A stretch of 64,000 nucleotides of DNA from Marchantia polymorpha subsp. ruderalis (Eukaryota > Streptophyta > Marchantiopsida > Marchantiales > Marchantiaceae), in NCBI GenBank assembly GCA_037833965.1, contig AP031358.1, forward strand, positions 12,780,001-12,844,000, in the 5' to 3' direction. The notes under the pieces are model-generated. The model searched no databases and was not told where the DNA came from. It saw only the letters and a list, made by a program, of their open reading frames with translations. Position 1 is the stretch's first letter, and every line of letters begins with the position of its first letter. This document shows, one piece after another, positions 1-64,000 of the stretch. Position numbers and translations under genes: made by a program.

Positions 1-3000
1 CAGGAAGAAATCTTCCTCGCAGGTTTGACTGGAATACTGTGATCACAAAAGTGCAAGTATTTAATGGTTACACTTGCACATCTGAATAATGTAGATGAGC
101 ATTAGAATGTCATCGACTTCCCGGGTCGTCCACATCGGGCTCATTGACTTCAACAGCCCTGCTTTATGGCGTCTGCTCCGTCGCTGTAGAATATCTACAC
201 ATACCACCGAATGTTGACCGAATCCTTTTCGAAAGCCAGTGCTGGAGGAGCTCGTGTGGAAGTTCCCACAAAGTTGATCCTGTCCGGACGAGTCTTTTCT
301 ATATCCGTATGCACTGCATGGTACCTGCTGCTGGGAGGTTCTCACGGGATCACCGTGTAGCCAAGTTCCAATCGCTCTCTCATAAGATCTGAACACAGAA
401 GAGATGGACGTCGGACCATGTAGAGCCTGGAGGGCATCCTTCCACATCAAGCAACAGCTCAGCTCAAAGCAAGGTAGAACTTATGAGACAGCTTGCTGAT
501 TCAATCAGATGGGATATTACCAAGTCTTGAAGCTCAGGAAAGGTTCTGCAATTGCACATAAATAAACCTCTCCTTTCCACAAACAACCAAGCAGCTGTCT
601 GCCGCCAGTAGCTTCCAGTGATGTGATCTGAGCGTCCTACATTGGGGCATGGCAGTCAGTGTGAGTCGCCATTCCAGTTGAAAATTGTGAGGTGGCCACG
701 GGATTTTTGCAGAACCTTTCCTGTGCACTCCCTATCATACAGAGCAGCTGAATTGCGATCGTGCCAGATGAGATCTGATGCTCACCAACAACGGCATCCC
801 TGACTGCCTGCTCTACCCACGGAGGCGCGAAGAGTCTGCAGTCATTGGTCCGGGGCACGGGCACGTAAACACCGAGACCTGGATCAGATTAAAGTTCTTA
901 CAGCCCATTCTGGGTCACATCGTTGCAGAGAACTGCTGCTCGTGTACGCTTATAGTGAGACTGCAAGGCCTTGAGCTCTGCTTGTCGGTGGTGGCGGTGC
1001 ACATATGCTCGATTCGCACTTTCGTGATCATGCTTCGGGCTTCTGTTTAATCAGATGTTCGGATCCGGGAGTAGAAATGAGAAAAAAATGAAGTTGTAAG
1101 AAGCTGGTGCACGGATTGAGGCAATAAAGATCTCGAAAATCGAGAACCGGTGCATGTCATGTGCGGAGAAATCGACATTAAAGTCAGAGCTATGGTGGCT
1201 GACGAGAACACGAAGGCAGCCAGCCAGCTAACAGAAGAGTGGCTTCACGAATTCCCAAATCACAGCTTCTACCGAACATCCTCTGGAGATGACCTCATCA
1301 TTCTCATAACGAGAACGGTCACACACACACGGGGTCATTCCTCCATCTCGCTGCCTTGTTGCAGTGCAGAAATGGCATGGTACAGACGAAGCTCATACGT
1401 GCGAGGTCTGAGCATCGTGTACACGTCTATGAGTATTAAAAGTCGTGAAGATCAGAGACGAGTGAGTAAGAAAGCAAGCCATACACGGCAGCCATCGGAG
1501 CTTCCAATGCGAATTGGAGCGATGTACAGATCCCCGCTGAGCTGCGACTTGAGAAGTCTGATGTGGAAACTAAGAGGCTCAGCCGATTTTGGAGGTGCTC
1601 AGATATGGAGTAGACTTTGACAGAATCCGAGCATAAAATTCATGGAGTAGACTGTGAGCGAAGGATATGGAGTAGACTTTGAGCGAATCCAGCGCCTCTC
1701 TCTGCAGCAGTCTTGCTTGGTTCTTATCCGAAGGCCCTTCACTCACTGATGACAAGCTCGATAGACCGTCTGCTGATTCCACTTTCTTACTCTCAAGGAA
1801 ATTTAGATAGTTTGCCGGTTCTCCGATCGCTTTGTTTGAGAGCAGCAGCTGTCGACGCAATCCTTCTTTTAGAGATTTGACAGAGGTGCCTTGAATACCA
1901 AGCGAGGCTGGTGAGCTCCTTAAGAAGAAGAAGAAGAAGAAGAAGAAGACGGCTAACTGACGTGAGAGCTCGAGCAGCTCAGGTGTCATACTGACATTGG
2001 TCGGAAAATATCATGATTGCTTCGGCAGCTGGTCCAAACCCCGACAACTTTACCATTCAAGCTGTCATTCGCTGTGCTGTACCTCCTGGCGAGAAGAAAA
2101 CTTGCGGAGGTTGAGCCTCAGGGTTCCTAATACGGATGTCTGGATTCTGGGAAATTCAGTCCATTCACGTCTGTACATGGCGTGAATTTGAAATACAGGT
2201 GCACGTGGTCGGTTCAGAGAGCTTTCAAATCCCCCATTTTGGACATGATATAACCAGGCACTCGGAATTTTGTTAAGTATCCAAGCCACTAGAAACAAGT
2301 TCATCGCAGAAACGTAAGATATGGATTGCTTGGACGGTACGTCAGACTTCGGACATGGCAGCTTCTATCACGGCTTCTCTGTTATCATTTGAAACCAGAT
2401 CTGCGGGCAAATGGATGAAAATGGTTCTTGTCCAGCATCACATGTCTCTTGCGCTGGGCACTTTGGCTTTGTTTCAGCAGCTTGAGAAATAACATGTAAT
2501 CCTCCCGATTTCGCCCAACTCGTTTCTGACGATGAATGCATGTGAGAGCTCGTGGTGTCCAGGACTAGCAGCCAAAACAGATGGAGTACTCTCGAGGTGG
2601 GGTGAGGCTAGCGGCGCAGTGCGGAGAGAGATGTGCACCATACACAACCTTGTTGCGTTGTAAATGGCTCAGTAAGTTAAAATACCTGATGTCAAGTACT
2701 GACGGCTGCTGATCGAAGAGTTACTTTTGCTGATAAGCAAAACTAACATTGGCGTTAATGGACACAGCTCACATCCCATAGACTATGACACTTTCCTGCC
2801 CTCCAGACCTTATTGCAAGAACCCTGGTCTTCGTAAGCAGGCCGGGCGACCTTGCCTTCCGACTTCCCGATTTGGCATCCCATTCAGCCGAAACTTCTTG
2901 TGGCTCTGAGTGGCAAGTTGTCCACTGCAAGAACTTCACAATCCAAAATGCACAAGAAATGGCGCACGATGACATCACGCCGTTCTCTCAACTTGCTGTA

Positions 3001-4661
3001 TAAGATTCGACGAGGACTCTGCAAAGTATGACAGGTAGGAATGGAAGACATTCTGTTGGGTTTGACCTTCAGAGACTTGGGTTCCTTGCCCAGGTCTCTG
3101 GAAAGTGCATGTGGAAAATTGCACGGCAGGTCTACTGAACGTCCAGCAGCAGCCTATATTGAATCGGCCGTCAACCCCACGTGAGCAATTGGGGTCGCAG
3201 AATGCAAGGCTGAGGATTCAATCCTTCAGAGTTGCAACGAATGTTTCAGAGTCGTTTAGCTGCATGGGAGGCTCCACGCTTCTCTGAAAGCTCCAGCCGA
3301 TACATGCACACAAGGCACAGAATTCATCCTTCTCATCATACTAGATGAAATTGGAGACTGGAGATCGTGACCTGGAGAGCCACGCTGACTTTGTAACCCT
3401 TATTACTTCGTGACAACCTTCAAGTCTATGAGCCAATTGGGCATGGTCTGTCAAGGTATGGCGAGTTGTAGACCTAACGTAGATCCTGAGATTTCGTGCC
3501 CGACACATCACAGTTCTTGGCGTGTATCTCAGATCAACATGGCAGGGTGATATCCTCCACTAGGGGACGACTATCAAGTCTTACTGCATGCCGTTGCTGT
3601 CGAATATCATCCTCCTGTACTCAAGCCCAGTATCTATCTCGCAGCTCTATCTCCTGCTCTTCAACCATCTGGAGAAGTCTTATGGTACATACCGTTCTCC
3701 AGGAACTTCAGCCAAGCGCAGTTCCTGATCGTTTAAGTGCCAATCAGTACAGGACTAGCTGGAGGTCAAATCATTGTGTGAAGAAAAACGGCGCAATGTT
3801 CAGAGCAATCCACGAGCGCATGAGTCTTCCTGAGAAACGTCTCATATCAATGTCAGGTCAGGCCTGGACAATTTGTCAGCTGTCCAGCCTCGGACATGCT
3901 GTTCACTCTCAATTCGTCGTATTGGAAGGGAGTTGACGTCAGCGCAGTGATCTTTATGGTATACTTTACATTCAGTGCCGACTCATTGGCAACAATTACA
4001 CTCCTCGACGTTTCAAGAGCCAGACGCAACAGGCGTAAGAATATAAGTTTGTTACACACCTTCCGACATACTAAGCTTCAAATCAAATTCATGCAGCTTA
4101 GGATCAGCATACGAACGTTAAAGCTCAATTAAGGCACATGTCATGGCTTAATTACAGGCACATGTCATGCAGACCAAAAGGGCCTTTGAAGTTGACTTGG
4201 CAATGATCAAAAAAGGATGTGCATTAAATTCAATCGTACACGAGAAGAAAATTCATCATAGCGTCAATCAGTTTGAACTACGCATACGTCAAATGATTGA
4301 GTTTCCCAAAGCTCAGGTTAGAGGATCTGCTTCACCATGTCGACTGAACTCTTAAGAAAATATTCTGATCGTATGAAGTTCTGGTTAAAGACTGCTGAAG
4401 CTTTCCGGTCTGAAGACATGCGTTCTCTATACTCAATGACATACAGTCTCCAACAACAGCGAGACAAGTGGATACTGGCCCCACTTTGAATGAAAAGAAA
4501 TTTCTCTAGATGGAGACCAAGTCTTTTACAGAATAAACGGGACCTTCTTGGTCAGACCGGATTTGACCACCAAAGAGCTTGGGTTGAGTCTTTCCTGAGC
4601 AAGCGTCCGGAGACATGTGTGTCACGAAAAATGAGACAAAACTTTCACTGAGTTGGAGAAC
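1..4661. other. Region without a recognisable gene, unit 1
   Basis: Reading frames here reach about 150 codons, but none matches a family I know, and several of the longest begin with GTG or TTG rather than ATG. A 60-codon open stretch at about 3548-3737 has protein-like composition but no ATG and no recognised motif. A short motif containing ATGGAGTAGACT occurs three times at about 1603-1690. Two copies of GGCACATGTCATG lie at about 4134-4170. The region may hold decayed gene or transposon sequence. Confidence 0.6.
1922..1948. repeat. (AAG)9 microsatellite
   Basis: Nine AAG triplets; units 2 and 3 have eight. On the minus strand it reads as a TTC tract inside an open frame, which gives an artificial phenylalanine run. 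Confidence 0.95.
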
Positions 4662-6038
4662 TTGGAAGACTCACATATCTAGCGATTTCAGTACAGGCAC
4701 TATATTTCAGATTATAGGGCCACTATTCCCCGACTAGCATGCTTCCAAGATGTTTCAATCTGAGGACCTTAAAATGACCTTAAAAGTCGTCGACACGTTT
4801 TTTAATGGGGCGCAGTAATGCGGCTGATTGTCAGCACTTCATATACGCGTATAGTCAGCAGGGAAGATTCTCCGGACACATTCCGATGATTTCACTTTGA
4901 AGAATTTCATCCCAGCCAGAAGCTTAGATTTTGTCCGAGCAGTTCACATACGAAGGACCTGTGGGATAAAAGTAGTAGCAGCTGCTCACGAATTAAGCTT
5001 TGACTTCTTCGTTCGCTGATAAGTCTGAAACGTTCTATCCTCAATATTACACGAGGCACACAACATTAGAGATGGCAGTCGCCTGTTGCCGTTCTGGTTC
5101 TGGAAGTCCAGTCATTGCGGGATGTCTACCAGATTCTTTATTCTCCATACCGGATTCGCGCGAATTCGCACCGTCAAGAGGCAGCTGTGGTCCACTTTGT
5201 GTTGGCTTATGAATGGATCAACTTAGTTCAGGAGTTATAATGTGGACTTGATTATTCAGATTGAACTGATTCAGCTTTAAGAGAACGAGTCAACTTCAAC
5301 TGCAAATGCAGTCAGGCAGTTCTTGTATGTACATTCATGGGACTATTAGATGTAAGAACATCATTCCAAGAAATGGGTGGAGGGAGCAGATATGGTTCAT
5401 GGAATCAGTGGAATGTAATGAAGTAAGATCAGGGGACCCAAAAGGTCATTTGTCCAAAAAATATAGGGACTTTGGCCGTGAAGGCGAGCTCCATGATGAG
5501 ATAATGATGAGATTGCTTGTCTCTTGATGTGCCCTCACCCAAAGGCGGGTGCAAAGGCAGCATAGTTCAATCTGAATTTTAGACTATTCACGCACGAATA
5601 ACGTAAAAAGTTTCTCAATTGAAAGTCACACAATTTTACTACGTCACCTCTCAAAGAATTGAGCTGGACTAAAATGTCGCTGCCACCTGATTCCCGATTT
5701 TTTGCATGAGTTTTCAGAATTTGCAAACCGATAACGCATTCACATGCTTTCTGTCACATAATTACGTCACACAAGAAGCAGGGACCTTGGCCGGAACGCA
5801 GTAAAACCAGATAAAAAGTACTTTGTCAAGAGATCTGATGATAAAGTTATCGAAATAATCTCTCTACACTAATCACGGACTCGTCGACTGGAGTATTTCC
5901 AGTTCACTTCAAAGACCCACATGAGACTACTGTAAGATGGCAATCTCATAATCTAGTCCGACAAGGGCACATTTATCTAATAATTGGAAAAGAACATATA
6001 TGGTCCAAACTTTGGTATACAGGCCTAGCTCAGACGCT
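4662..6038 (-). mobile_element. Truncated TIR element, left copy, unit 1
   Basis: This segment is the reverse complement of the element at 16154-17688. It begins with the shared terminal sequence TTGGAAGACTCACATATC and shows similarity up to 6038, where the far terminal repeat is missing. The outermost bases of the retained terminus also differ from the complete copy. Short open frames occur inside, but no transposase motif is visible, so it is non-autonomous. Unit 1 lacks 12 bp between 5754 and 5755. Units 2 and 3 and the inverted copy all have those bases, so unit 1 suffered a deletion. Confidence 0.75.
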
Positions 6039-6638: not shown

Positions 6639-8862
6639 ATGGGGACGAATCCGAGACGAACCGAGGCTCCAGCTCTCAGATTTAGCCATGCTTCTCATCT
6701 GAAGCTTGCCTGTCTTCTCGGGGTGTTGTACTCACTATCAGTGATTCAGGCTCAGGATGTTCACTCCCGGTGCGGAAACTTGACTCCGTCACCTACTCTG
6801 ACACCATTCGTGCAGCCACTGCCTATACCTGTGGAAATCGACATCTCCACAGGGTCTCAGCTGACTTTGGGTGCTTACAAGATTTCCCAGGTACGGATTC
6901 TCAGAGTTTTAGCGTGCACTGCTTTATGCCAGAAACCCCGGGTACAAAACACTCAGCTGAAGTACAACAGTGGAAGGTCCATGCAGCTGAATGGTTCACT
7001 TGTACCGGAGGGGATTCCGATAGAGCCAGTTTTATGTTTGTCAAGTACAGTGAGGCATGCGTTCTCTCTCATCAGAGGATGCATAATCGGAGCTGATTTC
7101 CAGATGGGGACATGTTATCAGATGAATACTTTCTGCACGACTGCATGCTTGCAAAAGTCGTACAATTCTTGCAAATGAGCGCTGTTACGAAATTCTTAGA
7201 CTGGCCAATAGTAGTCTGAGATTGCAGCAGAATTCTCGAGAATCCGAGAATTGAATACCAGTCACGGGTTGCGTGGATTGAGTTTCGTAAATTGATCCGA
7301 ACAGAATTTAACCCGCGGCTGCTGTGTGCAATTACAGAGCGTCCATCCAGACCTTCCGAACACGACATTCTACGGATACGGGACGAGTCAAGACACAGCC
7401 ACATCTCCGGGCCCGACTCTGAACGCCAGGAGGAATGTGGCCTCGTTCATTCGGTTCGAGAATCACATCACCGACGCGGAGCACATTCTGACCGTGGACA
7501 AGACGCTGCACAGAGCGACGCCAGCGAACGGAGGCGTGCCGATGAGCGTGCACCTGCACGGCGCCGACGCCGAGGGCAAGTTCGACGGGCACCCGGAGGC
7601 CTGGTTCACGGCGGCCGGCGACAAGGGCCCGACCTTCATCGCCACGAACAACACGTACCCGAACGAGCAGCCGGCGAGCCTTCTCTGGTACCACGACCAC
7701 ACTCTGGGCTACACTCGGCTCAACGTGGTATCCGGGCTGGCCGGGCTGTACTTCATCCGCGGGGGATCCGGCGAGCCCGGTTCTCTGCCCGAAGGACGGT
7801 ACGAGATCCCGCTGGTCATCCAGGACAAGCAGTTCTACCCCAACGGGTCCATCAACTTCCCGGACCTCGGGTCGCCGCTGTCGCCCGCGCACCCGCAGTG
7901 GTGCCCGGATTATTTCGGCGACACGATTCTGGTGAACGGCAAAGCCTGGCCCTTCCTCGACGTGGTCGGGGCCGTGTACCGCTTCCGCATTCTGAACGCG
8001 GCCAACGCTCGAGCCTTCACTCTCTCGTTCAGCGACAGCCGCCTCCAGTTCGTGCAGATCGGCACGGACGGCGGCTACATGTGGGCTCCCCAGCTGCTGC
8101 AGAATCTGACCATGGCTCCTGCTTACAGAGTCGACGTCCTCGTGGACTTCTCAAGCGTTCCCGTCGGGACGACGGTGTATCTGAACAATACTGCTCCGGC
8201 CCCGTTTCCTGATGGGGACCCGATCAATAGTCCTCCCAGCACCAGGCACGTCATGAAATTCAATGTCGTTCAGTCCATACCCGGGTTGCCTGCGCAGAGT
8301 GTGGTCATTCCTACTTCCATCGGGTCCGCCCCCAGCACCGCCGCCTGGATAGACTCGGCGGTGTACAGAAATGTGACCTTGGATGTGGTTCTGCCGCCGG
8401 ACCTGACGTTTCTGCTGAATAAGAATCACTGGGATGATCCTGTCACCGAGACGCCGAAGCTTTACACGACCGAGATTTGGGATATCATTCACCTCATTCC
8501 GGGCGGCATTCATCCGATCCACATTCATCTCATCAACTTCCTCGTGCTGCATCAGCAGGCGTTCGATCTGACTCGGTTTAACGGTGGCCTGTGTTCGCTC
8601 CTGCTGTCATATCCGGAGTCCCTCAGCTGCTACACTGAGGCCCCGCAGCCTCCGGACGCCACTCAAGTCGGCTGGAAGGACACCGTGGTCGTCTACCCGG
8701 GCACGAGACTCAGAATTCTGATGAATTTCGCGCCCAGAGACTGGCCGCAATTACACGTTCGATCCCACCACGTTCCCCGGTTACGTATGGCACTGTCACA
8801 ACCTGGACCACGAGGACCATGACATGATGAGGCCGCTCCGAATTCTGCCTGCAGCATCTTGA
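6639..8862 (+). CDS. Secreted multicopper oxidase, LPR1/bilirubin-oxidase type, two exons, frameshifted near the 3' end
   Basis: Exon 1 is 6639-6890 (84 codons) and exon 2 begins at 7338. The 447-bp intron starts GTACGG and ends ATTACAG, phase 0. The joined product has an N-terminal hydrophobic segment (LKLACLLGVLYSLSVIQA, a likely signal peptide) and copper-ligand motifs HLHG (about 156), WYHDHT (about 201) and HPIHIH (about 476). Family members couple substrate oxidation to reduction of O2 to water; plant LPR1 acts as an apoplastic ferroxidase in phosphate/iron signalling. The frame open to 8822 misses the last motif. One extra base around 8739-8743 moves HCHNLDHEDHDMM and the natural stop at 8860-8862 into the next frame. 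Ignoring that base the protein would be about 591 residues, close to LPR1. As written it ends after about 26 aberrant residues and would lack the type 1 copper ligands. It is either a pseudogene or carries a shared consensus error. The exact substrate is unknown. Confidence 0.85.
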
Positions 8863-9423: not shown

Positions 9424-9839
9424 GCGGGAATTTTATTACTTGTAAAACGTGGGAATAATTTTAAAATGGCATAACGGATTCGGTTATGACATTTCAAACT
9501 ATTCCCGGGTTTTCACTTACACCAACTCCAAATTGATAGTATAAAATGACACGCAGGTTCATCATTCGTTTCCATTCTCGCACTGGTCGATGTGACGGGA
9601 GATCAGATCAGAATTCGCGCAAGGAGAGAGAGAAGTCGTCCTTCTGGTTGTCTTCATTGTTCGTTCACACTCCCACACCGGTCGATGCGAGCCTGAAACA
9701 CTAACCTTTGGCGAAGAGGTTAGTGTTTAGGCTGACGAGCTTCAAACGAGAGAAGGAAGAGGCCGCATTGAGGAAGGAGCGCGAGGAGGAAGCGACTTGA
9801 TTCTTCCTACCTTCCCGACCCTTCTAATCAGACGTATTG

Positions 9840-10250
9840 GGGAAGGGTTAGGAGCATAAGAAACACTTTCAACACCACGAAGCTCATCCTGCCGCTGAAG
9901 TCATTCATGTGCCCTCTGACGAAGGAGCTAGTTGTGGATCCGGTCATTCTAGTAACAGCGAGCGGGCATCGATAACAGCGTGGTTCGCAGAAGGAAACAC
10001 GACCGATATGACACTGAGACATATCGCTCAGTTGCTCCTGAGTGACTGAGCGATATGACACTGAGGCCAAAAATTCCGGTCAGGCAGTCGATCGAGGAAT
10101 GGCAGGGGCGCAATTACTGGATAGGTTTTCTCAGAGCGAAGTCCATGTTCCAGTCCGAGAGCGAAGGTGAACAAAAAGCTAAGCTCGATGATTTCATCGA
10201 GTTGTGCCCGAAGAACAGATTGGATCGTCCAAGAATGCCTCCTGGTCTAT
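9840..10250 (+). pseudogene. U-box E3 ubiquitin ligase fragment, copy A, unit 1
   Basis: The frame from 9840 leads into FMCPLTKELVVDPVILVTA at about 9904. This is the start of a plant U-box, the E2-binding fold of PUB-type ubiquitin ligases, here with the C-P-L-T and D-P-V signature. An 11-bp deletion near 9957, relative to copy B at 18981, then shifts the frame. Past an inverted duplication at 10020-10057 the reading resumes with RQSIEEWQGRNY and a segment like the linker into ARM repeats (KLDDFIELC). A TATA-like box (9540-9546), a hairpin-bearing leader (9696-9728) and a short E/K-rich stretch precede it. No intact ligase can be made. The MCO to U-box order is repeated at 18392-19200. Confidence 0.75.
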
Positions 10251-12839: not shown

Positions 12840-13371
12840 GTTTAACCCTCCACCTCCTTAGTAATGTGCTTTCCATGTTTATTTTAGATAAAGAGCAATA
12901 AATGTAACTTCAAGTTGGAATTTTTAATTATTTCTTCATACTCAATTATTCACTTTTTGAAAATTTACATTTTTTTACATTTACTATCTTTAAATCAAGT
13001 TGGTTTCTTTATTTATAATTGGATCGTTAGTTTTTGTTAAAAAAAGAAGAAGAATTCATGTGTGACCGCACACATGTTAAGTCACAAGGGAGCTTGATAA
13101 GAATATTTTATACTTTAATTGAAAATATTTGTTCAAAAAATTTTTATAATAATGAACTTAAGCTACTTGATCATATACACTTAATCACATCCAAATTTAT
13201 TTCATTTTCAAATTTACATAATTTACTTGATCTTTCATAGTAGAGTATTGGAAACCATGATTATTATATGTTTAGCTAATTCATGGCAGTTAGTCTGCTT
13301 GAAAACCATTTTTTTTGGTGCAATAAAATATGGGAATCAGTTCTTAAAGTTAGCCAGGGTGACAGTGTGAA
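12840..13371. other. AT-rich island before the satellite, unit 1
   Basis: Composition changes sharply to AT-rich DNA with A and T runs, unlike the GC-balanced neighbours. Only a 68-codon low-complexity frame is present. It may belong to the same foreign segment as the adjacent satellite. Confidence 0.7.
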
Positions 13372-15113: not shown

Positions 15114-15143
15114 GACTCTGGCAAATTCAAAATTTGAACGGAG

Positions 15144-17688: not shown

Positions 17689-17691
17689 CAA

Positions 17692-41513: not shown

Positions 41514-41516
41514 CAA

Positions 41517-50500: not shown

Positions 50501-52200
50501 GCGCACGATGACATCACGCCGTTCTCTCAACTTGCTGTATAAGATTCGACGAGGACTCTGCAAAGTATGACAGGTAGGAATGGAAGACATTCTGTTGGGT
50601 TTGACCTTCAGAGACTTGGGTTCCTTGCCCAGGTCTCTGGAAAGTGCATGTGGAAAATTGCACGGCAGGTCTACTGAACGTCCAGCAGCAGCCTATATTG
50701 AATCGGCCGTCAACCCCACGTGAGCAATTGGGGTCGCAGAATGCAAGGCTGAGGATTCAATCCTTCAGAGTTGCAACGAATGTTTCAGAGTCGTTTAGCT
50801 GCATGGGAGGCTCCACGCTTCTCTGAAAGCTCCAGCCGATACATGCACACAAGGCACAGAATTCATCCTTCTCATCATACTAGATGAAATTGGAGACTGG
50901 AGATCGTGACCTGGAGAGCCACGCTGACTTTGTAACCCTTATTACTTCGTGACAACCTTCAAGTCTATGAGCCAATTGGGCATGGTCTGTCAAGGTATGG
51001 CGAGTTGTAGACCTAACGTAGATCCTGAGATTTCGTGCCCGACACATCACAGTTCTTGGCGTGTATCTCAGATCAACATGGCAGGGTGATATCCTCCACT
51101 AGGGGACGACTATCAAGTCTTACTGCATGCCGTTGCTGTCGAATATCATCCTCCTGTACTCAAGCCCAGTGTCTATCTCGCAGCTCTATCTCCTGCTCTT
51201 CAACCATCTGGAGAAGTCTTATGGTACATACCGTTCTCCAGGAACTTCAGCCAAGCGCAGTTCCTGATCGTTTAAGTGCCAATCAGTACAGGACTAGCTG
51301 GAGGTCAAATCATTGTGTGAAGAAAAACGGCGCAATGTTCAGAGCAATCCACGAGCGCATGAGTCTTCCTGAGAAACGTCTCATATCAATGTCAGGTCAG
51401 GCCTGGACAATTTGTCAGCTGTCCAGCCTCGGACATGCTGTTCACTCTCAATTCGTCGTATTGGAAGGGAGTTGACGTCAGCGCAGTGATCTTTATGGTA
51501 TACTTTACATTCAGTGCCGACTCATTGGCAACAATTACACTCCTCGACGTTTCAAGAGCCAGACGCAACAGGCGTAAGAATATAAGTTTGTTACACACCT
51601 TCCGACATACTAAGCTTCAAATCAAATTCATGCAGCTTAGGATCAGCATACGAACGTTAAAGCTCAATTAAGGCACATGTCATGGCTTAATTACAGGCAC
51701 ATGTCATGCAGACCAAAAGGGCCTTTGAAGTTGACTTGGCAATGATCAAAAAAGGATGTGCATTAAATTCAATCGTACACGAGAAGAAAATTCATCATAG
51801 CGTCAATCAGTTTGAACTACGCATACGTCAAATGATTGAGTTTCCCAAAGCTCAGGTTAGAGGATCTGCTTCACCATGTCGACTGAACTCTTAAGAAAAT
51901 ATTCTGATCGTATGAAGTTCTGGTTAAAGACTGCTGAAGCTTTCCGGTCTGAAGACATGCGTTCTCTATACTCAATGACATACAGTCTCCAACAACAGCG
52001 AGACAAGTGGATACTGGCCCCACTTTGAATGAAAAGAAATTTCTCTAGATGGAGACCAAGTCTTTTACAGAATAAACGGGACCTTCTTGGTCAGACCGGA
52101 TTTGACCACCAAAGAGCTTGGGTTGAGTCTTTCCTGAGCAAGCGTCCGGAGACATGCGTGTCACGAAAAATGAGACAAAACTTTCACTGAGTTGGAGAAC
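47543..52200. other. Region without a recognisable gene, unit 3
   Basis: Third copy of the uncharacterised stretch. It carries the clustered changes at 48888-48891 and a T to C change near 52157 relative to the other units. Confidence 0.6.
49464..49487. repeat. (AAG)8 microsatellite
   Basis: Eight triplets, same length as in unit 2. Confidence 0.95.
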
Positions 52201-53589
52201 TTGGAAGACTCACATATCTAGCGATTTCAGTACAGGCACTATATTTCAGATTATAGGGCCACTATTCCCCGACTAGCATGCTTCCAAGATGTTTCAATCT
52301 GAGGACCTTAAAATGACCTTAAAAGTCGTCGACACGTTTTTTAATGGGGCGCAGTAATGCGGCTGATTGTCAGCACTTCATATACGCGTATAGTCAGCAG
52401 GGAAGATTCTCCGGACACATTCCGATGATTTCACTTTGAAGAATTTCATCCCAGCCAGAAGCTTAGATTTTGTCCGAGCAGTTCACATACGAAGGACCTG
52501 TGGGATAAAAGTAGTAGCAGCTGCTCACGAATTAAGCTTTGACTTCTTCGTTCGCTGATAAGTCTGAAACGTTCTATCCTCAATATTACACGAGGCACAC
52601 AACATTAGAGATGGCAGTCGCCTGTTGCCGTTCTGGTTCTGGAAGTCCAGTCATTGCGGGATGTCTACCAGATTCTTTATTCTCCATACCGGATTCGCGC
52701 GAATTCGCACCGTCAAGAGGCAGCTGTGGTCCACTTTGTGTTGGCTTATGAATGGATCAACTTAGTTCAGGAGTTATAATGTGGACTTGATTATTCAGAT
52801 TGAACTGATTCAGCTTTAAGAGAACGAGTCAACTTCAACTGCAAATGCAGTCAGGCAGTTCTTGTATGTACATTCATGGGACTATTAGATGTAAGAACAT
52901 CATTCCAAGAAATGGGTGGAGGGAGCAGATATGGTTCATGGAATCAGTGGAATGTAATGAAGTAAGATCAGGGGACCCAAAAGGTCATTTGTCCAAAAAA
53001 TATAGGGACTTTGGCCGTGAAGGCGAGCTCCATGATGAGATAATGATGAGATTGCTTGTCTCTTGATGTGCCCTCACCCAAAGGCGGGTGCAAAGGCAGC
53101 ATAGTTCAATCTGAATTTTAGACTATTCACGCACGAATAACGTAAAAAGTTTCTCAATTGAAAGTCACACAATTTTACTACGTCACCTCTCAAAGAATTG
53201 AGCTGGACTAAAATGTCGCTGCCACCTGATTCCCGATTTTTTGCATGAGTTTTCAGAATTTGCAAACCGATAACGCATTCACATGCTTTCTGTCGTACAT
53301 GGAGACACATAATTACGTCACACAAGAAGCAGGGACCTTGGCCGGAACGCAGTAAAACCAGATAAAAAGTACTTTGTCAAGAGATCTGATGATAAAGTTA
53401 TCGAAATAATCTCTCTACACTAATCACGGACTCGTCGACTGGAGTATTTCCAGTTCACTTCAAAGACCCACATGAGACTACTGTAAGATGGCAATCTCAT
53501 AATCTAGTCCGACAAGGGCACATTTATCTAATAATTGGAAAAGAACATATATGGTCCAAACTTTGGTATACAGGCCTAGCTCAGACGCT
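52201..53589 (-). mobile_element. Truncated TIR element, left copy, unit 3
   Basis: As in unit 2, with the 12-bp segment present near 53295. Confidence 0.75.
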
Positions 53590-54057
53590 TCAAGTTAGGC
53601 AGGCGTGTCCATGCAAGCAATATCTACCACCGCTGAGTACTGCAGAAGCCAGACTCCACGAAGAGTCCCACTTCTGGGTTCGGATTTCCGAGGCATGGAA
53701 GCCCAGATCCAGAGACAATTGATGAGACAATCCAGAGACTTTACTATTTCTCTCAAAACGTATTAGAGATAAGTATCGTTATGTGCGAGGGTCATAGTAG
53801 ACTCCGCAAGGTAGAATCCACCGTTGGTCAGTCTGTTCGGATTCCTCCTTTCTAGCACCCTTTCATGATCCTGTTTCGACTTTGTAAGAATTATTCTCTC
53901 AAGGCGAGCAAGCACCGGTGGTCCACGCTGCGGTCTGTGTCATGAAAAGTGGAAAAAAGTAAATTCTGTCAGCTGTTTCTGCAGAACGATCCCGGTTGCT
54001 TCGAGGGTTAGAGTAGGAGCGTTCTCGCACGATCTAGAGAACATGAGAGTGAGCCTT

Positions 54058-54063
54058 TATAAG
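54058..54063 (+). promoter_or_regulatory. TATA box of the multicopper oxidase gene, unit 3
   Basis: Identical to the unit 1 box and at the same distance from the ATG at 54190. Confidence 0.6.
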
Positions 54064-54189
54064 GACATTCGATGAGCTTCTACCTCACTCAGAGTTGTAC
54101 ACCCTGGAGTACGATTCACATAGACATTGTGAAATCCACGTGGTCAATTCAATTCCAGTTCGACGTGCAGTTCCAAAATCATCACCGTC

Positions 54190-56413
54190 ATGGGGACGAA
54201 TCCGAGACGAACCGAGGCTCCAGCTCTCAGATTTAGCCATGCTTCTCATCTGAAGCTTGCCTGTCTTCTCGGGGTGTTGTACTCACTATCAGTGATTCAG
54301 GCTCAGGATGTTCACTCCCGGTGCGGAAACTTGACTCCGTCACCTACTCTGACACCATTCGTGCAGCCACTGCCTATACCTGTGGAAATCGACATCTCCA
54401 CAGGGTCTCAGCTGACTTTGGGTGCTTACAAGATTTCCCAGGTACGGATTCTCAGAGTTTTAGCGTGCACTGCTTTATGCCAGAAACCCCGGGTACAAAA
54501 CACTCAGCTGAAGTACAACAGTGGAAGGTCCATGCAGCTGAATGGTTCACTTGTACCGGAGGGGATTCCGATAGAGCCAGTTTTATGTTTGTCAAGTACA
54601 GTGAGGCATGCGTTCTCTCTCATCAGAGGATGCATAATCGGAGCTGATTTCCAGATGGGGACATGTTATCAGATGAATACTTTCTGCACGACTGCATGCT
54701 TGCAAAAGTCGTACAATTCTTGCAAATGAGCGCTGTTACGAAATTCTTAGACTGGCCAATAGTAGTCTGAGATTGCAGCAGAATTCTCGAGAATCCGAGA
54801 ATTGAATACCAGTCACGGGTTGCGTGGATTGAGTTTCGTAAATTGATCCGAACAGAATTTAACCCGCGGCTGCTGTGTGCAATTACAGAGCGTCCATCCA
54901 GACCTTCCGAACACGACATTCTACGGATACGGGACGAGTCAAGACACAGCCACATCTCCGGGCCCGACTCTGAACGCCAGGAGGAATGTGGCCTCGTTCA
55001 TTCGGTTCGAGAATCACATCACCGACGCGGAGCACATTCTGACCGTGGACAAGACGCTGCACAGAGCGACGCCAGCGAACGGAGGCGTGCCGATGAGCGT
55101 GCACCTGCACGGCGCCGACGCCGAGGGCAAGTTCGACGGGCACCCGGAGGCCTGGTTCACGGCGGCCGGCGACAAGGGCCCGACCTTCATCGCCACGAAC
55201 AACACGTACCCGAACGAGCAGCCGGCGAGCCTTCTCTGGTACCACGACCACACTCTGGGCTACACTCGGCTCAACGTGGTATCCGGGCTGGCCGGGCTGT
55301 ACTTCATCCGCGGGGGATCCGGCGAGCCCGGTTCTCTGCCCGAAGGACGGTACGAGATCCCGCTGGTCATCCAGGACAAGCAGTTCTACCCCAACGGGTC
55401 CATCAACTTCCCGGACCTCGGGTCGCCGCTGTCGCCCGCGCACCCGCAGTGGTGCCCGGATTATTTCGGCGACACGATTCTGGTGAACGGCAAAGCCTGG
55501 CCCTTCCTCGACGTGGTCGGGGCCGTGTACCGCTTCCGCATTCTGAACGCGGCCAACGCTCGAGCCTTCACTCTCTCGTTCAGCGACAGCCGCCTCCAGT
55601 TCGTGCAGATCGGCACGGACGGCGGCTACATGTGGGCTCCCCAGCTGCTGCAGAATCTGACCATGGCTCCTGCTTACAGAGTCGACGTCCTCGTGGACTT
55701 CTCAAGCGTTCCCGTCGGGACGACGGTGTATCTGAACAATACTGCTCCGGCCCCGTTTCCTGATGGGGACCCGATCAATAGTCCTCCCAGCACCAGGCAC
55801 GTCATGAAATTCAATGTCGTTCAGTCCATACCCGGGTTGCCTGCGCAGAGTGTGGTCATTCCTACTTCCATCGGGTCCGCCCCCAGCACCGCCGCCTGGA
55901 TAGACTCGGCGGTGTACAGAAATGTGACCTTGGATGTGGTTCTGCCGCCGGACCTGACGTTTCTGCTGAATAAGAATCACTGGGATGATCCTGTCACCGA
56001 GACGCCGAAGCTTTACACGACCGAGATTTGGGATATCATTCACCTCATTCCGGGCGGCATTCATCCGATCCACATTCATCTCATCAACTTCCTCGTGCTG
56101 CATCAGCAGGCGTTCGATCTGACTCGGTTTAACGGTGGCCTGTGTTCGCTCCTGCTGTCATATCCGGAGTCCCTCAGCTGCTACACTGAGGCCCCGCAGC
56201 CTCCGGACGCCACTCAAGTCGGCTGGAAGGACACCGTGGTCGTCTACCCGGGCACGAGACTCAGAATTCTGATGAATTTCGCGCCCAGAGACTGGCCGCA
56301 ATTACACGTTCGATCCCACCACGTTCCCCGGTTACGTATGGCACTGTCACAACCTGGACCACGAGGACCATGACATGATGAGGCCGCTCCGAATTCTGCC
56401 TGCAGCATCTTGA
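54190..56413 (+). CDS. Secreted multicopper oxidase, LPR1-like, frameshifted, unit 3
   Basis: Exons 54190-54441 and 54889-56413. The predicted protein is identical to units 1 and 2, with the same frame break at about 56290-56294 and the open frame ending at 56373. Sharing of the lesion by all copies means it predates the amplification, or is a systematic error. Confidence 0.85.
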
Positions 56414-56912
56414 GTCCACCTTCCGCCTCCAGCATCTAGAAATCGGACCACTTTAGACGTCCATTCTCTCGACATCTGCACATAGCTCACAACCATGTTC
56501 TGCACCGTCGACAAGTTTGATGGCCTCTAGCTTCAGCCGAATCCGGAGGAAGAATCGAAATGGATGAGAGCCAGGCGCCAAAAGCACGTAAGAACGCGCT
56601 ACATTTCACTTTCCTGATCATGCAAATCGTCTTACCGGGCAATAATCGTGGACAATCTAGTAATCGTGTGCAGAGTTCGAGGTCAAGTCGAACGCCTGAA
56701 GAGTCAGTACTTCACATGAATCGTTGAAGAGGATGGCTTGAGACTCGAAGGTTATTGAGTTGATCGAAGAGAATGACAGTTTCAGGTGCACAACTGGGAC
56801 AAGTGTGGAGGAGAGAATGAAAAAAATGAGTAAAGTGTACCAGCGGCTCAAACAGTAATTGAACGGTAACGGTAATTGAAGTTAATTATTAGAGATAGAG
56901 TTGGTTCAAATC
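56414..56912. other. 3' flank of the oxidase gene, unit 3
   Basis: Same content as the unit 1 flank; no gene recognised. Confidence 0.5.
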
Positions 56913-56974
56913 GGTCTATATGCCTGATTTGAACCAACTCTAATTAGAGTTGGTTCAAATCAGGCATATAGACC
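56913..56974. repeat. Perfect 62-bp palindrome, unit 3
   Basis: Identical to the unit 1 palindrome. Confidence 0.97.
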
Positions 56975-57390
56975 GCGGGAATTTTATTACTTGTAAAACG
57001 TGGGAATAATTTTAAAATGGCATAACGGATTCGGTTATGACATTTCAAACTATTCCCGGGTTTTCACTTACACCAACTCCAAATTGATAGTATAAAATCA
57101 CACGCAGGTTCATCATTCGTTTCCATTCTCGCACTGGTCGATGTGACGGGAGATCAGATCAGAATTCGCGCAAGGAGAGAGAGAAGTCGTCCTTCTGGTT
57201 GTCTTCATTGTTCGTTCACACTCCCACACCGGTCGATGCGAGCCTGAAACACTAACCTTTGGCGAAGAGGTTAGTGTTTAGGCTGACGAGCTTCAAACGA
57301 GAGAAGGAAGAGGCCGCATTGAGGAAGGAGCGCGAGGAGGAAGCGACTTGATTCTTCCTACCTTCCCGACCCTTCTAATCAGACGTATTG

Positions 57391-57801
57391 GGGAAGGGTT
57401 AGGAGCATAAGAAACACTTTCAACACCACGAACCTCATCCTGCCGCTGAAGTCATTCATGTGCCCTCTGACGAAGGAGCTAGTTGTGGATCCGGTCATTC
57501 TAGTAACAGCGAGCGGGCATCGATAACAGCGTGGTTCGCAGAAGGAAACACGACCGATATGACACTGAGACATATCGCTCAGTTGCTCCTGAGTGACTGA
57601 GCGATATGACACTGAGGCCAAAAATTCCGGTCAGGCAGTCGATCGAGGAATGGCAGGGGCGCAATTACTGGATAGGTTTTCTCAGAGCGAAGTCCATGTT
57701 CCAGTCCGAGAGCGAAGGTGAACAAAAAGCTAAGCTCGATGATTTCATCGAGTTGTGCCCGAAGAACAGATTGGATCGTCCAAGAATGCCTCCTGGTCTA
57801 T
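57391..57801 (+). pseudogene. U-box ligase fragment, copy A, unit 3
   Basis: Same as unit 2. A private substitution lies just after the upstream TATA-like box, near 57100. Confidence 0.75.
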
Positions 57802-57866
57802 ATCGTGAAAGCCATGCTCGGTCGCTCCTACTCTCAAAAAGGGTGGGAGCTAAGCTCAGAGAGGGG

Positions 57867-57970
57867 GAGAGGGGCCATGAAAGCCCCTCTCACCCGTTCT
57901 CCTTTGCCCCATGAGAGGGGCAAGGGAGAACGTCTCTAAGCCCCCTTCCTCCGGAAGGGGGGTTAGAGAC
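57867..57970. repeat. Three consecutive hairpins, unit 3
   Basis: Copy of the unit 1 hairpin trio. Confidence 0.9.
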
Positions 57971-58084
57971 GGTTCGGGGGAAGGGACGACCCCTGTCCCC
58001 TGTCCCCTCGCGCGAAAAATGCCTGTCGCCAGCCTCTGTTCAGCAGAAATTCGTGCTCCGCCGTCTTCCCAATCTTCCAATAGC

Positions 58085-58232
58085 ACCATCTCCGTGGCCG
58101 TCAGTGCCCTCTCCTCTCCCCCTTGCGTCTCGCGTTGGAAGGACATGATCCCCGATCCCTCTCCGCCTCCGCCCATTTCCGGTCACGAGATCAAAACCCC
58201 TCGCTCAGGAATCGTGTGAGATCTCGATGGCG
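58085..58232 (+). repeat. 148-bp leader repeat, first copy, unit 3
   Basis: Copy of the unit 1 element. Confidence 0.8.
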
Positions 58233-59265
58233 TACGATTTCCCTTGTACTGCAGGTTCTGAGCACTGCCACCCGCCGGTGGAGCCCACGCTGGCCCCCTC
58301 TCCTCTCCGGTCGATTCGCGGGATATTCTCTCGCTCGCTCCGCCGTTCGGTCTTAATCTCTCGGTCGACGTTCGAGGCACATCTTTGTCGCTTCCGTTCC
58401 TTGTTCCGTTCATCCCCCATCACGATCTCACCCCACCTCGTAGGGTAGGAGGGTGCGACCTCGTACGGGACGCGATTCGCAGTGGATGACAACATTCGGT
58501 TCCGAGGCTCGGACGCGGCTCCGTCCCTTGGCTGGGACTCGAAGCAGGGAGGCTGTAATGATTGACGTACCGATCTGAGTCTCTTGCTTGGGAACTCCAG
58601 CCGGATGTACCCAAACAGGCCAATGCCGCTCTGTCTCTACCTGAGCAGGACCGGACAGACGCTCCGTCGGTCCCAAGGCTTGCGGTTTAGCGTGAGAACA
58701 ACTCCATGAGGTGTTCCCAAGTGGTACACCGTCCCGTGGTCCGTGGTCCGTGGCCCGTGGCCCGCAGCCTCTGACTATGACCCGAGGGAGGAGTTTCGCG
58801 CACCCTGTCAATTTGGGCTCAAGATAGATCGACACCTCCCAATTTTAGCCGAGTGTTGTGCAGAGTTATCTCACGGCGAATGGACACTTGAAGATCCGGT
58901 CGACTGCTCAGAGTCCATAGACCAGGAGCTCCCTCAATTTCTGGCTACGAGCTGATTCGAGGCGTGACGAATTTTGAGGCCCACGGATCGTCGATGAGTC
59001 GGATCGAGCGGCACATGGTTCCGGGACACATGGCTGAGTTTAATAGTTCTTCTGATATCAACAACGAACCAGCAAGGCTCTATCATGACAGAATTGACAA
59101 ATTGCTCCTTTTGACAATGGTCAGCGACCGTCAGTGTCAAACAGGAAAACTATAAGAAAGGAGTCCATGCCAGTACGACCACCGGTAGTAGACTGACATG
59201 CTGGGATGTAATCTCATCCAAACGAACACTGAACTAATTCACGGAGCACAGAGTGAAGAACTTAC
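58233..59265. other. C-rich stretch without a recognised gene, unit 3
   Basis: Copy of the unit 1 stretch. Confidence 0.5.
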
Positions 59266-59438
59266 CCAACTTTCAATTGCTGTTTGAATCCTGGAACTAG
59301 ACTCCCTCCTTGTGCGTAGTAGCCTGCCTCTTGTAACCTCACCAACCCTGCGTGGGTATCTCTTTCGCCCAATTCTAACACCTCTTCGTGAGTACCGATC
59401 TCAATCAAGGTCCCGTTGTGCATGACCCCGATGATAGC
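59266..59438 (-). pseudogene. ABCB-type transporter exon, unit 3
   Basis: Copy of the unit 1 exon remnant. Confidence 0.75.
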
Positions 59439-59477
59439 CGTTCAAATCACTCTGTCAACGGATGAGATAGAATTTTT

Positions 59478-59513
59478 ACTTTGAATTTGAGTTTTGAAAC
59501 TCAAATTCAAAGT
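59478..59513. repeat. Inverted repeat, 17-bp arms, unit 3
   Basis: Copy of the unit 1 inverted repeat. Confidence 0.95.
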
Positions 59514-59571
59514 TAAAATCACATTTCATCTTTGAACTTGAATCTTTGAAACGGCTGAAATTTCTTCAGAA

Positions 59572-59719
59572 ACCATCTCCGTGGCTGTCGGTGCCCTCTC
59601 CTCTCCCCCTTGCGTCTCGCGTTGGGGAGACATGATCCCCGATCCCTCTCCGCCTCCGCCCATTTCCGCCCACGAGATCAAAACCCCTCGCTCAGGAATC
59701 GTGCGAGATCTCGATGGCG
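59572..59719 (+). repeat. 148-bp leader repeat, second copy, unit 3
   Basis: Copy of the unit 1 element. Confidence 0.8.
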
Positions 59720-59752
59720 AACGAGCTCTCCTCTAATTACGATTTCTCGTCA

Positions 59753-59855
59753 ACGAATTTGCTGTCACCATTCATATGCACATACAATCAAACTCTCACA
59801 AACACATTCTCACACGAGCGAGGCCAAAGACGCCGAATGGTGACAGCAAATTCGT
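59753..59855. repeat. Fold-back of 103 bp, unit 3
   Basis: Copy of the unit 1 fold-back. Confidence 0.9.
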
Positions 59856-60078
59856 GTAAAACTAACAACACTAGAACACCTGAATGTCCTCAAGTCTTGA
59901 AAACAGATCCCGAGGTGGAATGGTGGGGAGTAGTAAGTGGGGATTGGACTTGGCCCCGGACTACTCTCCCGCAAGAATGACGGAAAAGAAAAAAGCTTCA
60001 AAGGTTTATATAGTCTTGGCTGGGTAGTCCTTTGTAACTCACATCTCCCCGATATTTGAAATTTGAAATGTTTTGCGC

Positions 60079-60167
60079 GGAAGTGGCCGATCCTGGATCC
60101 CTAGGTTGCTTTTAACACCACTCGATGATACGGTTGGTATTAAAAGCAACCTAGATCGGCGACTTCC
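60079..60167. repeat. Fold-back of 89 bp, unit 3
   Basis: Copy of the unit 1 fold-back. Confidence 0.9.
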
Positions 60168-60390
60168 GGCAGCGGCTCAGAATGTAACTTTGTCTAACCG
60201 TATAGAAATGCAAATCCCATGCGGCTTGTTTCCATCGATAGGGATTGGCGCTGGACTCCGGCAGGAGCGAGTAATATAGCATTGAAGAAGATATTGAATA
60301 GGTCTAATAAATGTTGTAGAGCCAGAGTACAAAACAATGGACACATTGTTTAATATTCTCAAAAAGAGAATATAAACCTGTACAAGAATA

Positions 60391-60922
60391 GTTTAACCCT
60401 CCACCTCCTTAGTAATGTGCTTTCCATGTTTATTTTAGATAAAGAGCAATAAATGTAACTTCAAGTTGGAATTTTTAATTATTTCTTCATACTCAATTAT
60501 TCACTTTTTGAAAATTTACATTTTTTTACATTTACTATCTTTAAATCAAGTTGGTTTCTTTATTTATAATTGGATCGTTAGTTTTTGTTAAAAAAAGAAG
60601 AAGAATTCATGTGTGACCGCACACATGTTAAGTCACAAGGGAGCTTGATAAGAATATTTTATACTTTAATTGAAAATATTTGTTCAAAAATTTTTTATAA
60701 TAATGAACTTAAGCTACTTGATCATATACACTTAATCACATCCAAATTTATTTCATTTTCAAATTTACATAATTTACTTGATCTTTCATAGTAGAGTATT
60801 GGAAACCATGATTATTATATGTTTAGCTAATTCATGGCAGTTAGTCTGCTTGAAAACCATTTTTTTTGGTGCAATAAAATATGGGAATCAGTTCTTAAAG
60901 TTAGCCAGGGTGACAGTGTGAA
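60391..60922. other. AT-rich island before the satellite, unit 3
   Basis: Copy of the unit 2 island. Confidence 0.7.
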
Positions 60923-61615
60923 GACGAGGAAGAAAGTTATAACTCTTTAATAACAGTATTACTAATAAATCTAATCGTTTAATGAAAGACTTTGTAAATC
61001 CATTGATATCATGGGTATGAGGTCGAGGAAGAAAGTTATAACTCCTTAATAACAGTATTACTAATAAATCTAATCGTTTAATGAAAGACTTTGTAAATCC
61101 ATTGATATCATGGGTATGAGGTCGAGGAAGAAAGTTATAACTCTTTAATAACAGTATTACTAATAAATCTAATCGTTTAATGAAAGACTTTGTAAATCCA
61201 TTGATATCATGGGTATGAGGTCGAGGAAGAAAGTTATAACTCCTTAATAACAGTATTACTAATAAATCTAATCGTTTAATGAAAGACTTTGTAAATCCAT
61301 TGATATCATGGGTATGAGGTCGAGGAAGAAAGTTATAACTCCTTAATAACAGTATTACTAATAAATCTAATCGTTTAATGAAAGACTTTGTAAATCCATT
61401 GATATCATGGGTATGAGGTCGAGGAAGAAAGTTATAACTCCTTAATAACAGTATTACTAATAAATCTAATCGTTTAATGAAAGACTTTGTAAATCCATTG
61501 ATATCATGGGTATGAGGTCGAGGAAGAAAGTTATAACTCCTTAATAACAGTATTACTAATAAATCTAATCGTTTAATGAAAGACTTTGTAAATCCATTGA
61601 TATCATGAGTATGAG
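60923..61615. repeat. 99-bp satellite, seven copies, unit 3
   Basis: Same copy number and same CTCTTT variant pattern as unit 2. Confidence 0.98.
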
Positions 61616-61733
61616 GTCGTGAGTGTTGTTGAAGAAAGATTGAAAGGAAATATAAAATTTAATATGATCACAAACTTAATTATTAAGTTATCTTAGCTAT
61701 TTGAGAAGATTGTATAAATTCTGACTCACATAG

Positions 61734-61749
61734 CCCTAAACCCTAAACC
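61734..61749. repeat. Telomere-like (CCCTAAA)2 motif, unit 3
   Basis: Copy of the unit 1 motif. Confidence 0.7.
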
Positions 61750-61880
61750 TCCAGTTCCACAATTGATGACCCAATCTTCCGCATTTCTATATCATTATCA
61801 ACCGGAGTAGCCTGTTTGATCTATTCAAGTACAAAGACACGCAAAAGATTTCAGTTTTGGATTCGTTTAGTTTTCACTAA

Positions 61881-61931
61881 CTTATTCAACGAGTAGTTTA
61901 GTGTCCAATACGAAACTACTCGTTCAATAAG
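61881..61931. repeat. Inverted repeat, 19-bp arms, unit 3
   Basis: Copy of the unit 1 inverted repeat. Confidence 0.9.
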
Positions 61932-62080
61932 ATAAATTACTCGTTCAGTAAGTTACTAAGGGGAAAATAAATTACTCAGGGGATGTAACTTCAAACACTC
62001 ATTACGGTCCTCTATGTAGATTGAGGAGGAAGATGGACTCGGAGTGTGTCTAGTGCCTTCGCAATCCTTTGACTCCAGAA

Positions 62081-62235
62081 TCGATTTGTCCTCGTGAAGT
62101 GAAGTCCCGGGAGGAGTATATAAGGCCCACCACTCTGCCCACTCTCTCCAGAGCCCGAAGTCGATTTGTCCTCGTGAAGTCCCGGGAGGAGTATATAACG
62201 ACCACCACTCTGCCCACTCTCTCCAGAGCCCGAAG
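62081..62235 (+). promoter_or_regulatory. Tandemly duplicated core promoter, unit 3
   Basis: Copy of the unit 1 promoter pair. Confidence 0.6.
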
Positions 62236-62731
62236 CTGCTCGTAGATCTGAATCTGCAATTCAACTTCCTCTCACCATATCAAGTACCTTGGCGTAAATA
62301 CAGAAGTCGATTCCCGTCTAGTCGCTGGACTGCAGATTTCGGCATTTTTCTCTTCTGTCGAATCTATTGGAGAATATTGGTTACCTTCTGGTACGTTATC
62401 GGCCCTGCGCGACTCGGTCAAGGAGGACTTCCAAGACTTAAACATCTTGATGTAAATTTCAGCCTGGGCTGTCATCGCTGATAGTACTCCGCTTGACTCC
62501 GGAAAGCCGTTTACACTGAATTCAGCGTGACAGAGCTGTCAGTTGTGAGTCGTGATATATGCTTAGTCCTGACCCATTAGCATTCCGCACAGCATCAACT
62601 CATCCCTGCATTTTTATTATTTTTGATTTTGTATCTCATCCTCCCGTAGCAGTGTCAAGGTTTGGAACTCTTGCTCTTAAGTTTCGAACTTAAGAGTCTT
62701 GAATTTCGAATTTGCCGAATTTCGAATTTTT
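62236..62731. other. Spacer between promoter pair and VIT fragment, unit 3
   Basis: Copy of the unit 1 spacer, with a private C to A change near 62557. Confidence 0.5.
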
Positions 62732-62763
62732 GTTGTGCCGCCGGTGACCTCCGGCGGCACAAC
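62732..62763. repeat. GC-rich hairpin, unit 3
   Basis: Copy of the unit 1 hairpin. Confidence 0.95.
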
Positions 62764-62793
62764 GACTCTGGCAAATTCAAAATTTGAACGGAG

Positions 62794-62998
62794 GTCGAAG
62801 AAGGTTGAAATTTTGTACGGCCAGCTTCAGCAGAGGACCAGCGAAGAGAAGCATTTCACGGCGGGGGAGTTCGTTCGCGATGTGGTCATCGGTATGTCAG
62901 ACGGGCTGACAGTTCCCTTCGCCCTGGCTGCGGGACTCTCTGGAGCGGCCGCCCCTTCTTCGATTGTAGTCACGGCCGGTCTGGCTGAGGTAGCAGCC
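62794..62998 (+). pseudogene. VIT1: VIT-family N-terminal fragment, unit 3
   Basis: Copy of the unit 1 fragment, with identical predicted residues. Confidence 0.8.
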
Positions 62999-63194
62999 TC
63001 GCATTCCTTTGCTTCATTCCGGACTCGATTTCTCGTCCCAGCCTCCCGCACCCGCCAGCAATCGACGTGGACCTTCGTCCCACTTGAGATGTGAGATCGA
63101 GCACAGTGCTCTTCATAAGCAACTCTACTTGTCCTGTAAACTGCCTGAAAGTTTCTGATGACGATGGGCCAGCAGGTGCAAGGTGGTTTAGAAT

Positions 63195-63332
63195 CTAGAA
63201 GATCAGAGTTTCGACGGGGCTAAGAGTGGTGGTGGTTGTGACTATTGCCCTCGGTTGGGCAGCCACTGGGCTCCATGCTGAGAGGACAACAGCAAATGCT
63301 GCGACCAGAAGGACGGCAGTCTTCGTCATCAT
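63195..63332 (-). CDS. Small secreted-peptide candidate, unit 3
   Basis: Same 45-codon frame as unit 1, with the same TATA spacing. Confidence 0.5.
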   Translation of the reverse strand: MMTKTAVLLVAAFAVVLSAWSPVAAQPRAIVTTTTTLSPVETLIF

Positions 63333-63446
63333 CGCTGCAGTTGCGGATACAAGCTAGAAGACTGAGATTCTGTGTGAGCTTAAGATCTAGAAGGTAGCAA
63401 GTCTGATTTCTGTGTCTTCTGGAGGAAAGATAATGGATGTCTCTCC

Positions 63447-63452
63447 TTTATA
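63447..63452 (-). promoter_or_regulatory. TATA box of the small secreted-peptide candidate, unit 3
   Basis: Copy of the unit 1 box. Confidence 0.5.
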
Positions 63453-63803
63453 GTCCCTTCAGAAGTGTTTCTTCCACTGATCCAGTCTGAACCCATGATC
63501 TGCATTTCGCGCTTGCCACATTATGCGCCATGTAACACCTGCCACCGAGGTTATCAAATGTCTTCTCTATTGAACTCAATATCGAGCTAATTTTTTTTTG
63601 TGTAAATTGAATACGGTCCTGTATATTGTCTAGGTGGTTTGAAGCAACTGATACTTGATCTAACACCGCTGTGAACACGGATATATAGAAGTTTGACACT
63701 CCGTTTCTCGTCCAACCTCCCTACGAATGCTGAATTTAATAAGATGAATTTCATTTAGATTGCATTACATTACTATGTTCTCCGATTTACACGTAAAAGG
63801 TGT

Positions 63804-64000
63804 GACTGGTTGGAAGACTCACATATCTAGCGTCTGAGCTATACCTGTATACCAAAGTTTGGACCATATATGTTCTTTTCCAATTATTAGAAAAATGTGC
63901 CCTTGTCGGACTAGATTATGAGATTCCCATCTTACAGTAGTCTCATGTGGGTCTTTGAAGTGAACTGGAAATACTCCAGTCTAAGAGTCCGTGATTAGTG
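63804..64000 (+). mobile_element. TIR element, right copy, unit 3, cut by window end
   Basis: Left terminal repeat and the first 197 bp of the element. Confidence 0.8.

Follow-up and report, generated by a model that had tools for sequence, protein, structure and literature searches.

A tandem array of about 347 kb on a Marchantia polymorpha autosome carries frameshifted multicopper oxidase copies and an intact copy at its right edge

How do long tandem units remain nearly identical to one another, and what becomes of a gene that is carried along in them? These questions are raised by a 64,000-nucleotide stretch of Marchantia polymorpha subsp. ruderalis DNA (GenBank assembly GCA_037833965.1, contig AP031358.1, here C9, positions 12,780,001 to 12,844,000; hereafter the window), in which two units of 23,717 and 23,825 bp and the first 16,458 bp of a third follow one another head to tail, as a first-pass annotation had proposed. 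The genome is that of female M. polymorpha Tak-2, and C9 is an autosome, probably chromosome 8 judging from the order of the contigs. The window turned out to be the interior of a larger array, and the observations made on it are probably best joined by a reading in which a homogenised autosomal array of ~347 kb has spread a broken multicopper oxidase gene among its units and an intact copy has been left at the right edge.

Across the whole 64-kb window, k-mer offsets of 23,714–23,825 and about double those values prevail, and unit borders fall at positions 1, 23,718 and 47,543. When the genome (nine contigs, 241,466,482 bp, with C9 accounting for 24,208,359 bp) was searched with a 401-bp probe, at least 15 places were found, all on C9 at 12,639,095–12,972,252 and thus within 333 kb. 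The array extends over C9:12,632,873–12,979,932, or ~14.6 units of 23.4–24.5 kb, starting at unit coordinate 19,321 and ending at unit coordinate 9,072. In the parts fetched (32.9 kb on the left, 14.1 kb on the right), the flanks are without similarity to the unit, and the left one holds a match to Ribophorin I. Probe places, borders and flanks together describe a macro-tandem array: multi-kilobase units in several copies, arranged head to tail at one locus. A ribosomal DNA array was ruled out, as no Rfam match at the gathering threshold was found in window positions 1–26,000 and no transfer RNA in the window. The array is not reported in the literature found, including the main text, as far as it was available, of the MarpolBase paper (PMC13078153), with subscription journals and supplements outside the scope of that search. 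Three side observations belong here: the assembly total is 17,820 bp below the 241,484,302 bp published for Tak-2 (PMC13078153); a 5.4-kb direct duplication (C9:12,600,129–12,613,915; 97.7% identical), with extra 1.9-kb partial copies, is present within the left flank itself; and one unit near the right end, u13 (C9 ~12,922,613–12,947,115), measures ~24.5 kb by probe spacing, ~0.7 kb above the other units.

The sequence analysed comprised C9:12,600,001–12,904,000, which includes the window, and C9:12,964,001–12,994,000. These intervals provided 11 full-length units (u1–u11) for comparison, the edge copies u0 (left) and u15 (right) and, beyond u11, the first 5.2 kb of u12, 3.4 kb round the probe in u13 and the last 6.8 kb of u14. 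The likeness among u7, u8 and u9, compared over their full length, is far past chance: u7 and u8 are separated by 6 substitutions and 3 gap events, u8 and u9 by 10 and 2, and u7 and u9 by 12 and 3. The private variants claimed for each unit are present but few, amounting to one singleton substitution each in u7, u8 and u9 when these are set against the 11 full units with unit 15.4–19.4 kb excluded.

The full units fall into two classes, B (u1–u5) and A (u6–u11). Units of the same class differ by 6–76 substitutions per ~23.7 kb (25 pairs) and units of different classes by 789–829 (30 pairs), the latter mostly in unit 15.5–19 kb, where ~1.5 kb has been replaced. Class A carries there a transposon-like segment bounded by terminal inverted repeats (Table 1), and class B carries an unrelated ~1.5 kb in its place; the inverted-repeat string is present in u6–u11 and absent from u1–u5. 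Outside this replaced core, the remaining 38 fixed class substitutions are all confined to 13,350–22,833, leaving ~14 kb, from 22,834 across the unit border to 13,349, free of them (gapped columns not counted). At 30 of 30 fixed sites, the last part of u14 carries the class B variant. The class A segment has a second, inverted copy that is found in both classes, and in class A units the transposon-like pair (16,154–17,690 and 4,653–6,038) flanks the oxidase gene described below; a transcript spanning both arms could form a hairpin.

Trees built from the two parts of the unit conflict. The class part divides A from B with a support of 1.0, whereas the shared part places u1 and u2 (B) with u7–u10 (A) and u3–u5 (B) with u6 and u11 (A), the placement of u2 having a weak support of 0.33. 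By the four-gamete test, 1,711 of 5,886 informative site pairs fail, with nine breaks between adjacent sites. Units that lie farther apart in the array are less alike (Mantel r = 0.58, p = 0.002; within class B, p = 0.017). Nine variants at 112–265 are common to u1 and u7–u10 and absent from u2, the neighbour of u1, which is the pattern expected of a short conversion tract. The edges are more divergent than the interior: of the private substitutions of u15, two lie up to unit 8,500 and eight in its last ~570 bp, and u0 is 91% and then 96% identical, with private sequence that includes ~650 bp at C9:12,636,737–12,637,392. Interior units that are more alike than the edges and that exchange sequence, as observed here on u1–u11 and the two edge copies, are the mark of concerted evolution, and the proposal that the array had been amplified very recently or was still being homogenised is borne out by these signs of recent turnover and exchange between units.

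Could a recent amplification of one unit, or of an A and B pair, have produced this pattern without any continuing homogenisation? Such an event would suit the small number of differences (6–15 among u7–u10, 13 between u1 and u2, 15 between u3 and u4) and the tendency of neighbours to be most alike, but the conflict between the unit-part trees, the four-gamete breaks, the short tract shared by u1 and u7–u10 and the 91% identity of the left edge point to exchange and to an older start, and we consider this account unlikely. An edge that has diverged by 9% is not expected of a young array alone, and 6 differences in 23.7 kb are not expected of an old array without exchange. Under the joint reading of a homogenised array, likeness would be kept by unequal crossing-over between neighbouring units together with short-tract gene conversion between distant ones. 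The ~1.5-kb heterology seems to block exchange in its vicinity, and this may be what keeps the classes distinct in one stretch of the unit and lets the other stretch mix.

The first-pass annotation also described the units as gene-bearing. This holds insofar as one substantial gene was found, a bacterial-type (CotA/LPR1-like) multicopper oxidase, but that gene is frameshifted in all 11 full units, and whatever else could be recognised is fragmentary. In each of the 11, the frame shifts by one base near window position 8,742, with a change in the final residues and loss of the HCH..HE copper motif at the C terminus; further frame breaks occur in u4 (a 16-bp deletion) and u6 (a 1-bp deletion). 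The right-edge copy, u15, has a full frame through HCHNLDHE, encoding 591 residues under our two-exon model. Its alignment to CotA runs across the copper motif, whereas that of the window copy ends before it, and its exon 2 aligns over nearly its whole length to PDB 9bd5 (E = 2.4e-100), PDB 1gsk serving as a further CotA/LPR1-type reference. The u15 gene therefore has both the Cu-oxidase domains and the C-terminal HCHxxxHE expected of a CotA-like multicopper oxidase, the latter being what the array copies lack. Before 8,333, that is, over its first three quarters, it is the same as the gene of u1 and u7–u10 without a single difference.

Among the best 80 of 102 bacterial relatives, the copper motif is present in 79, the one miss (L097) probably being due to a wrong reading frame, which argues that the intact form is ancestral. 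We infer that the gene in the amplified unit became frameshifted and that homogenisation then spread the broken form; the right-edge copy would have stayed full-frame because homogenisation ends a few hundred bases short of the frameshift point. The broken copies presumably have no protein function. When u15 was compared with the three acidic-triad motifs given for LPR1 in the part of PMC9168544 available, motif 2 was found, motif 1 had a D in place of the permitted E or A and motif 3 was absent, so u15 is not classed as an LPR1-type ferroxidase. In the same 80 relatives, motifs 1, 2 and 3 match 1, 0 and 74 sequences, respectively. Bacterial contamination was ruled out, since the bacterial relatives listed are only 30–36% identical over the best segment, the gene has an intron by the model and the flank holds the Ribophorin I match. 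In plasmid records, five short bacterial matches to the oxidase gene (67–75%) were found. One relative (L061), from a record titled as a Bifidobacterium breve metagenome-assembled genome, ranks among matches from Rhodococcus, Nocardia and Gordonia and is possibly a mislabelled bin.

An adaptive amplification of an iron or copper oxidase for dosage, of the kind known for a herbicide target in kochia, might be suspected, given that the sole substantial gene found is a multicopper oxidase, that LPR1 acts in phosphate and iron sensing (PMC9168544, available part), that phosphate starvation elicits a response in some MpLPR genes (PMC7672586, likewise) and that all three exon-2 substitutions among u1–u11 are synonymous. 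However, the copper motif is gone from every full unit, two of them have extra frame breaks and the intact copy is without LPR1 motifs 1 and 3. With the motif lost from all full units, the locus looks like a pseudogene array rather than a dosage amplification, and the adaptive explanation is improbable.

Several observations weigh against the joint reading. At the fixed class sites, u0 is of class A at 9, of class B at 17 and of neither at 4, and its decay is not smooth, so that the edges may not share a single history. Within class A alone, the effect of neighbourhood on likeness is not significant (Mantel p = 0.15). The three synonymous exon-2 substitutions could hint at constraint; two, both in u6, also occur in u15 and hence are not independent. 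In addition, u15 need not be the sole intact copy, as the gene was read in u1–u11 and u15, with u12–u14 outside that set. Finally, an older oxidase fragment in the unit (Table 1) is followed by unit-like downstream DNA, and the right edge may therefore be a truncation rather than the founding locus.

An assembler might also have repeated units falsely. Exact repeats reach 18,626 bp in the fetched part, more than the mean Tak-2 high-fidelity (HiFi) read of 14 kb, so the number of copies assembled between some neighbours could be wrong. Reads of up to 51 kb at ~108× after filtering are, however, given for Tak-2 in the available text of PMC13078153, and the linked differences between units, the two classes, the differing lengths of a variable number tandem repeat and the unique flanks make a simple assembly duplication unlikely, as had been argued from the private variants. 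The array is very likely real and its exact copy number is less sure, and an artefact as the origin of the whole pattern appears highly improbable.

A sex-linked ampliconic array, suggested by analogy with the liverwort male chromosome and by that analogy alone, is refuted for this assembly and has virtually no probability left, because the genome is female and its U chromosome is a separate contig, C1 (5,591,195 bp), whereas the window lies on the 24.2-Mb C9. The sole match in the genome to GAGA_bind (BPC), which we take to be the sex-determination family in Marchantia, is on C1, and none is on C9.

Table 1 Features of the array, in window coordinates unless C9 is stated
Feature	Coordinates	Strand	Remarks
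Array unit u7, class A	1–23,717 (C9:12,780,001–12,803,717)	+	23,717 bp
Array unit u8, class A	23,718–47,542	+	23,825 bp
Array unit u9, class A, first 16,458 bp	47,543–64,000	+	Rest of u9 lies past the window end
Span of fixed class A/B substitutions	13,350–22,833		~9.5 kb round the replaced segment
Class-A-specific segment, transposon-like	16,154–17,690	+	~29-bp terminal inverted repeats; in u8 at ~39,979–41,515 (derived)
Second, inverted copy of class A segment	4,653–6,038	-	Arms 97–98% complementary to 16,179–17,691; in both classes
CotA/LPR1-like multicopper oxidase gene, u7	6,639–8,822	+	Exon 1 6,639–6,890, intron 447 bp, exon 2 7,338–8,822 (our two-exon model)
Oxidase gene, u8, same frameshift	30,365–32,548	+	Position from unit offset
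Oxidase gene, u9, same frameshift	54,190–56,373	+	Position from unit offset
99-bp minisatellite	13,374–13,969		Also 37,100–37,794 and 60,925–61,619; 21-bp anchor 2–6 per unit (u1–u11)
VIT1 (vacuolar iron transporter family) fragment	15,031–15,444	+	Match to 44 of 214 profile positions; seen in all 11 full units
Older multicopper oxidase fragment joined to truncated U-box frame	18,392–19,364	+	Partial second copy of 7,695–8,021 and 9,508–10,011

The remaining content of the unit is modest. From 40 stop-to-stop frames of at least 100 amino acids listed in window positions 1–25,000, 30 were scanned against Pfam, and apart from the oxidase nothing but the VIT1 and U-box fragments scored above a curated cut-off. 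A short near-palindrome lies at window 18,210–18,293, with two 41-bp arms that are 90% complementary and separated by a 2-nt gap.

Gene-bearing tandem arrays are themselves a known kind. In the parts of PMC13078153 available, the M. polymorpha v7.1 assemblies are described as containing repeats with a glutamine synthetase gene on chromosome 3 (Tak-1) and with peroxidase and ion-transporter genes on chromosome 4 (Tak-2), as well as a triplication on the U chromosome, the chromosome 3 and 4 repeats each being reported in one accession and absent from the other. The present array resembles these as a large gene-carrying tandem in the same species and assemblies and differs in chromosome and gene. 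The EPSPS array of kochia (PMC6808082, available part) is alike in having plant tandem units of tens of kilobases with two dominant repeat types; a mobile element has been proposed as its cause, and unequal crossing-over is a further point of likeness. The inverted-repeat-bounded segment found here sits inside class A units, and the array edges (unit coordinates 19,321 and 9,072) lie elsewhere; no mobile element is shown there. The kochia gene is overexpressed and selected, whereas the oxidase is broken in all the full units. Primate macrosatellites and multicopy arrays (PMC4063668, available part) are likewise large, variable, gene-containing tandems that are hard to assemble; they belong to another lineage, and here it is the edge copy, not the full units read, that holds the complete frame. 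At the protein level, exon 2 of the edge copy aligns with oxidases of the CotA/LPR1 type (PDB 1gsk and 9bd5; PMC9168544, available part) but departs from LPR1 in motifs 1 and 3.

The arrangement of an intact edge copy beside a broken interior is unusual, and it has a practical side: if the array copies were counted as genes, they would inflate the metal-oxidase family, since all the full units read are broken. Being a well-sequenced tandem array in a plant model that is haploid and genetically tractable, the locus gives a direct view of neighbour effects, conversion tracts, edge divergence and how far a recombination barrier extends. The likeness of the edge gene to the array stops a few hundred bases before functional sequence, and it is conceivable, although we hold this as a doubtful suggestion, that the array behaves like a spreading pseudogene. 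If conversion does run from the array to the edge, the array would be a standing threat to the intact copy, or a silencer of it that depends on copy number; and if the ~1.5-kb heterology does block exchange, it would reveal over what distance a natural barrier to recombination acts.

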